From the NCBI GenBank assembly GCA_009778325.1, contig WRJZ01000052.1:1-64000 (forward strand): a stretch of DNA of 64,000 nucleotides, read 5' to 3'. Below the pieces are notes generated by a model. It made no database searches. It was not told the origin of the DNA and saw nothing but the letters and a program-made list of their open reading frames with translations. Source of the stretch: Candidatus Endomicrobium neocapritermitis. GTDB lineage: Bacteria > Elusimicrobiota > Endomicrobiia > Endomicrobiales > Endomicrobiaceae. The position numbers were made by a program, and so were the translations under genes. Below are positions 62,173 through 62,310 of this stretch, piece by piece; position 1 is the stretch's first letter, and every line of letters begins with the position of its first letter.

Positions 62173-62310
62173 AAAGACAGAGAATAGATAATAGAGAATA
62201 GAGTATAGATAGTGAGTTTTCGCTTTGCGAAAACCTATAACAAGTTTCGGCGAAGCCGAAACACAATATTTATTCTCTATTCTCTCTACTCTATTATCTG
62301 TCGTTAAAAA
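62173..62310. repeat. Heptad inverted-repeat element, word agagaat, with paired core hairpins
   Basis: The left arm is acagagaatagataatagag (62177-62209). The right arm is tattctctattctctctact (62269-62296). The core has GTTTTCGCTTTGCGAAAAC at 62216-62234 and GTTTCGGCGAAGCCGAAAC at 62244-62262, followed by acaata. It lies between groES and groEL, inside what is normally an uninterrupted operon. Confidence 0.93.

Follow-up and report, generated by a model that had tools for sequence, protein, structure and literature searches.

The gap between groES and groEL in Candidatus Endomicrobium neocapritermitis, a termite-gut bacterium of the Elusimicrobiota, raises the question of how a structure can be kept where its sequence is not. 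In the window, by which we mean the whole 64,000-nt stretch of DNA analysed, this gap and twelve further sites each carry two inverted arms of degenerate tandem words around a spacer, and the words differ. A sequence-only reading attributed the pattern to a process that creates the arms locally at each site and suggested an undescribed class of elements. To our knowledge, intergenic heptamer repeats of bacteria have been known for decades without a mechanism, and we know of no job for PF05635 (23S rRNA-intervening-sequence protein), a widespread protein family whose genes turn out to lie within arms of the same kind.

When the 13 coordinates were read directly and the arms checked for tandem 7- or 8-mers and for inversion, inverted arms of degenerate 7-8-mers were confirmed at every one (Table 1). 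Each arm is some four and a half units long where the words are degenerate 7-mers, and four units long where they are 8-mers. RNA fold z-scores range from -4.2 to -11.8 for 12 of the 13 loci (56585 was left out), and no shuffled sequence was equally stable. A detector of arms with period 7 or 8 found 20 arms in the window, 14 of them with an inverted partner, whereas two shuffled versions of the window gave no arm. Single, nearly exact AATTACG arms at about 11102, 26288, 28973 and 38207 were absent from the sites listed in the earlier reading; AATTACG arms sit in frame within the long ORFs 10631-19903 and 27674-30193.

Table 1. Elements and single arms in the 64,000-nt window, with the evidence for each
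Feature	Position	Strand	Evidence
Element, AATTACG 7-mer arms, spacer type CAAAGACAAAAC	1560..1670		arms, detector, RNA fold z -11.8
Element, AATTAAC-type arms, two-hairpin core, insertion in hairpin 2	4430..4572		covariance model 51.8 bits, RNA fold
Element, GAAGCTCR 8-mer arms, CGGCAAAGACAAA spacer; overlaps end of ORF 5069-5551	5473..5576		arms, RNA fold
Element, GAAGTTGG 8-mer arms	6486..6586		arms, RNA fold
Element, AATTAAC arms, two-hairpin core	7340..7472		detector, covariance model, RNA fold
Element, AGAGAAT arms, short spacer	8880..8966		arms, detector, RNA fold
Element, AGAGTGA arms, two-hairpin core 46036-46099	46006..46130	+	detector, covariance model, RNA fold
Element, AAGATAGG-type 8-mer arms	47036..47141		tandem and inverted arms, RNA fold
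Element, GAAGCTCG 8-mer arms; corresponding G003 gap has AGAGTGA element	51520..51638		arms, RNA fold
Element, AGAGTTC arms, two-hairpin core 53788-53851 (reverse)	53758..53890	-	detector, covariance model, RNA fold
Element, GAAGCTGG arms, second left arm nested within	56585..56745		arms, detector; not folded
Element, GAAGTTTG 8-mer arms	58306..58415		sequence, RNA fold
Focal element, groES-groEL gap, AGAGAAT arms, core 62209-62271	62173..62306	+	detector, covariance model, RNA fold
Single AATTACG arm (~11102), within ORF 10631-19903	11099..11135	+	
Single AATTACG arm (~26288), 37-mer identical to other single arms	26285..26321	+	
Single AATTACG arm (~28973), within ORF 27674-30193	28969..29008	+	
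Single AATTACG arm (~38207), 37-mer identical to other single arms	38204..38240	+	
Single GATGCAGR arm	44888..44920	+	

The genome under study (G000), whose GroEL is closest to those of Endomicrobia bacterium Cu122P5bin43 and Ca. Endomicrobium macrotermitis, was compared with its relatives G001, G002, G003, G004, G014, G023, G081 and G082 (on Endomicrobia genomes, see the accessible part of PMC11257099). Across 461 kb of G000 the detector counted 182 arms, against none in two shuffled windows; a larger sample (1.28 Mb read, including 18 kb twice) gave 443 arms, 342 of them with an inverted partner at most 230 bases away. Fetched stretches yielded 133 paired elements (G000 73, G001 25, G003 34, G002 one, G004 none), which were sorted into word-by-core groups by regular-expression classes, 7 of the 133 lying outside the named words. 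The claim that each locus has a word of its own holds in so far as the words differ, but a limited set (AATTAAC, AATTACG, AGAGTGA, AGAGTTC, AGAGAAT, AGTTAGT, ATGATTA, GAAGCTSR and others) recurs across loci. The element at 46006..46130, for instance, has dozens of relatives in G001 and G003. In 130 of the 133 paired elements it is the 5' arm that is rich in purines, a polarity accounted for by no model considered.

The two-hairpin core found in part of these elements forms one family: its covariance model matches exactly five sites in the window (4430, 7342, 46006, 53754 and 62173), the very five for which a shared core had been proposed; loci without it mostly have another type of spacer, built of CGGCAAAGACAAA-like words. 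In the core alignment, for which 37 of 45 extracted cores were used, 99.1 % of the stem cells pair, and double-changed cells number 30 against 7.3 in shuffles. Over the core hairpin stems, 73 double changes stand against 19 one-sided ones, plus one other mismatch. Loops of 3 bases, as yet unexplained, are present in 82 of 90 core hairpins, and many cores start at GATA and finish at TATC. Matches to the model number at least 53 each in G000, G001 and G081, at least 52 in G003, at least 51 in G023, 20 in G082, 10 in G014 and two in G004, with none in G002; any match at all is found in 19 of 99 genomes. From these counts the core family is patchy and occurs mainly in two genera within a single bacterial family. 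An exact pattern search of viral contigs found no core.

Other repeats are also present. A 33-nt inverted repeat at 9691-9965 of the window, 97 % complementary and with arms 209 bases apart, includes a 24-mer that occurs six times in the sampled genome and so represents another small repeat family. Positions 1-146 hold 2.3 tandem copies of a 63-nt unit with GTCATTGCGAG, and some elements of G003 have similar sequence in their loops. The G000 sample also contains 15 exact copies of a repeat (TACCAAGTTCAAACTCGGGGGGCAACCC...) unrelated to the heptamer elements. In the window, a 1061-aa protein at 23098-26283 consists largely of ankyrin repeats.

Each word marks an ordinary repeat family that spreads as whole copies. 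Alignment of the AGAGTGA family reveals fixed, non-identical arms common to copies from three species, and a 34-mer of one AATTACG arm, variant unit included, has 21 exact occurrences (the double reading of 18 kb being counted in). Arm coupling was measured by comparing an element's own two arms with arms swapped among copies in the same word group. Without orientation, 28 of 55 comparisons in G000 were positive (p=.75); in G003 only 5 of 26 were (p=.013), the two arms of one element resembling each other even less than swapped arms did. With orientation, 101 pooled elements gave a mean of +0.41 (p=.17), and in six of nine groups own arms matched no better than those of other copies. Coupling was absent from both AGAGTGA groups and from the AATTAAC, AGAGAAT and AGTTCAA hairpin-core groups; it was seen in GAAGCTC (p=.002), in the spacer type of AGAGAAT (p=.012) and, weakly, in AGTTAGT (p=.046). 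Sub-words can be seen within the coupled groups, whose coupling may thus reflect subfamily structure. The opposite possibility raised by the sequence-only reading, independent ordinary families without a common core, holds in its first half only: the words are ordinary repeat families, yet the core is shared between words.

That slippage with palindrome correction, or templated synthesis, builds the arms at each locus is improbable, although the three coupled groups would fit it, as would the excess of double changes in the core stems and the element L012:6714, in which GTGTAG is found in every unit of one arm and most units of the other. So would the dialects of both arms: the ratio of AGAGT to AAAGT units in G081 is 4:47 in one arm and 6:50 in the other, against 35:9 and 34:7 in G000, and in G003 both arms are enriched in GGAGT. 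The coupling tests, negative when pooled and in six of the nine groups, together with the exact arm variants shared between copies, rule out arms made locally for each copy. Reverse transcriptase (PF00078) is absent from all seven element-bearing genomes among the 13 searched, which also weighs against the model, including templated synthesis by a DGR or retroelement. What stands of the original claim is that both arms change together between species; because the words shift jointly in this way, slow concerted evolution is real (for template switching, see the available parts of PMC8794818 and PMC8604942).

In sister species the corresponding gap is often occupied by an element of another word, or is empty. 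The groES-groEL gap has AGAGAAT in G000, AATTACG in G001 and AGAGTGA in G003, is empty in G002 and G004, and carries still other words in some more distant Elusimicrobia. At two further gaps (L020:18172 and L005:7217) three species are occupied within a few nucleotides of one position. Over the 69 gaps comparable between G000 and G001, co-occupancy is raised (20/36 vs 7/33, p=.006), but not clearly so once tiny gaps are dropped (9/18 vs 2/12, p=.12), and for G003 it is not raised (13/21 vs 5/11). Independent insertion into permissive gaps therefore suffices, and orthologous retention with a switch of word was rejected on the same figures; a word may, however, be replaced in place at a gap. The GroEL tree leaves the branching of G000, G001 and G003 unresolved. 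Element flanks favour TTAACGGC..., and the orthologous empty sites are too diverged for a comparison of target duplications.

Searching plasmids with an AATTACG element led to cyanobacterial records; two of these have a gene for a four helix bundle protein enclosed by the arms, confirmed in both cases as PF05635. A protein search gave 26 plasmid records, and inverted flanks were found at all 20 PF05635 genes of the 20 records examined. The flank score of the 18 plasmid loci with controls lies above all 2,914 control windows, and a strict detector, free to choose any period from 6 to 12, reported 7 and no other, at 16 of the 20 on one flank or both. A score of at least 12.5 is reached by 22 of 22 loci (the 20 on plasmids, C46 of G000 and L181) compared with 1 of 111 control ORFs; in these 22 the autocorrelation of the arms is 0.78 at lag 7 and 0.20-0.34 at other lags. 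A second set, found in viral contigs by protein pattern, places 10 of 10 loci above all 1,151 controls, with a lag-7 value of 0.80. Inverted arms, of period 7 on average, hence flank the gene at 32 of 32 loci from plasmids, viral contigs and G000, a number that includes the near copies L262/L263, L324/L325 and L327/L328, counts the L181 locus again as L326, and contains three loci (L259, L260 and L181) found via the AATTACG word rather than by protein alone.

The words differ between most PF05635 loci. Relatives in protein can be one letter apart through the units of both arms (AATTACG at L259/L260, AATTGCG at L262/L263); in these plasmid cases the purine-rich arm is 3', opposite to most short elements. 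At L261 the inverted arms do not consist of clean heptamers. At several loci the arms begin close to the start and stop codons. Pfam confirmed PF05635 for the C46 gene (E 2.5e-26) and nine others tested, and the sole solved relative found is 2rld. Several of the plasmid genes sit among restriction or CRISPR genes: at L266, L268, L271 and L277 they lie between or beside cas2 and cas1, or between hsdS and hsdR, placed as if inserted into defence operons, and the L277 reading has two internal stops. Among open-licence PMC papers, within a limited library and set of terms, no description was found of heptamer arms enclosing PF05635 genes at sites other than rRNA.

In G000, a profile of 20 PF05635 proteins searched over about 1.26 Mb (53 % of the genome) found one intact gene, of 122 aa, on the reverse strand of contig C46 (5061-5429) between tRNA-Arg and tRNA-His. 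No second copy of this ORF exists in the same 1.26 Mb, and the short window elements contain no PF05635 gene. The C46 arms consist of AGAGTAT, AGAGTGT and AGAGTTT units; GATA then precedes the start codon, and TATC follows the stop. Short elements of G000 match these arms, among them the focal one at 62171-62211 (41 nt at 80 %). On account of these matching arms and of the GATA start and TATC end of the cores, descent of the short elements from a gene-bearing element of the C46 type appears plausible, though weakly shown, from sequence comparison. The motif at the 3' end of C46 recurs in two short elements of G000, three of G003 and none of G001. The shorter TTTGTCTTTG, equally frequent per base in the element-poor G002 and G004, is not specific and was discarded as a mark of descent. 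On folding, the full C46 element did not stand out from its shuffles (z -1.4). Two ORFs enclosed by a long-range pair of arms at L005:18581-19634 are not recognised by the PF05635 profile.

Which activity moves these elements can be approached through the alternatives. Ordinary MITEs of an unidentified transposase would also disperse as families, with PF05635 genes merely settling in or acquiring such palindromes. Terminal inverted repeats and many copies, both features of MITEs, are present in the window-type elements; there are many elements per genome against one PF05635 gene in half of G000, and gene-less word families are the rule. We nevertheless regard this explanation as rather unlikely, in view of such arms at 32 of 32 PF05635 loci, beginning near start or stop codons in several, and of the lack of a partner transposase among the Y1 (PF01797) and reverse transcriptase families searched. 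An immobile regulatory RNA structure, held by selection at each gap, would suit the strong RNA folds and the location just 3' of stops and 5' of ribosome-binding sites; it is barely credible given that the same gaps are empty in G002 and G004 and have other words in G001 and G003, and that no Rfam family matches in the window.

The search for a RAYT, which the sequence-only reading had recommended, did return Y1 transposase genes in G000 (three), G001 (two), G081 (one) and G082 (one). REPIN-like elements moved by such an enzyme are still very improbable: where a repeat is visible, the genes of G000 and G001 are flanked by a different REP (GTCAAGGGGACG...TTGAC) and not by the window elements' own repeat, as would be typical of REPINs, and no Y1 gene was found in the element-bearing G014, G023 and G003 (the last only 70 % complete). 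Among the RAYT-like genes (L185, L186, L187 and L188, at G000:C52:83368, C47:75497, C44:9613 and G001:C23:563), those of C44 and G001 C23 have an inverted pair of GTCAAGGGGACGTAGTAGTTGAC-like REPs, one on each side, that of C52 has a single GTCAAGGGGACGTAGTAGTTGAC-like copy upstream, and that of C47 alone has an AATTACG arm fused upstream.

On balance, we think it probable that these are small dispersed palindromic elements of the intervening-sequence (IVS) type, those of the window being ORF-less derivatives, in which pairing is kept and the word is free. In a full element, the gene for a four-helix-bundle protein of PF05635 would be enclosed by a pair of inverted arms, each a run of tandem 7-mers; some of the derivatives would have the conserved pair of small hairpins in their loop. 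The repeat families and the empty and filled sites show that the elements spread as whole copies into intergenic gaps, and the PF05635 protein may take part in this movement. The conserved property is the pairing of the two arms, the word being unconstrained. RNase III recognises duplex, not sequence. The stem probably presents it with a double-stranded RNA substrate, from which it follows that inserts would be removed from transcripts of operons or rRNA, as is reported for the Coxiella 23S rRNA IVS; since the stem would serve this removal, the arms would be freed from sequence constraint. Tandem units would permit pairing in many registers, and slippage with template switching between the arms, or turnover of master copies, may shift the word in both over long times.

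More tentatively, PF05635 proteins might define a pan-bacterial mobile class set by structure, the protein recognising or helping to build arms of free word, and many of the heptamer repeats known from Elusimicrobiota, Cyanobacteria and other groups might be ORF-less derivatives of this class. The common architecture with differing words supports the earlier suggestion of an element class that is probably not well described. With every examined PF05635 gene lying within inverted arms, mostly of heptamers, the puzzles of the heptamer repeats and of this protein family are joined, a reason is offered why structure outlives sequence, and both become testable in cultivable cyanobacteria or Endomicrobium.

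Several known systems share part of this architecture. REPINs and their RAYTs are likewise short extragenic palindromes with many copies and a rare gene; in the available text of PMC3116915 they are without heptamer arms, and the RAYTs of G000 and G001 sit in another REP. The TAACTGA repeats of Beggiatoaceae, Cyanobacteria and Bacteroidetes are intergenic heptamers before start codons across phyla, but the portion of PMC4679880 seen describes them as direct repeats of one word, with no inverted arms or gene. A further parallel is offered by cyanobacterial heptanucleotide repeats and the Nostoc trnL P6b stem, where the heptamer class changes (class I TDNGATT, class II NNTGAGT) and the structure is kept, so that a paired-7-mer stem persists with its word replaced at one locus; this stem lies inside a group I intron and, in the part of PMC4476775 available, is without a shared two-hairpin core. 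The nearest relatives are the 23S rRNA IVSs with an S23/IVP gene (PF05635). According to the accessible sections of PMC4990558, the terminal stem of the Coxiella IVS measures 28 bp and is cleaved by RNase III, and GACAGAT heptamers occur there in tandem; such IVSs combine an inverted terminal stem, a PF05635 gene with tandem heptamers next to it, and insertion into transcribed units. The elements of G000 differ in being intergenic, present in hundreds of copies, mostly gene-less, of many words and with a two-hairpin core; as those of the window lie between protein genes and C46 between tRNA genes, the name 23S IVS does not strictly apply to them. A stem of inverted terminal arms is nonetheless found both in the window and at PF05635 loci, the latter also having the tandem heptamers in their arms (lag-7 values of 0.78 and 0.80), and G000 has the gene itself in one copy, at C46, though in none of the short window elements.
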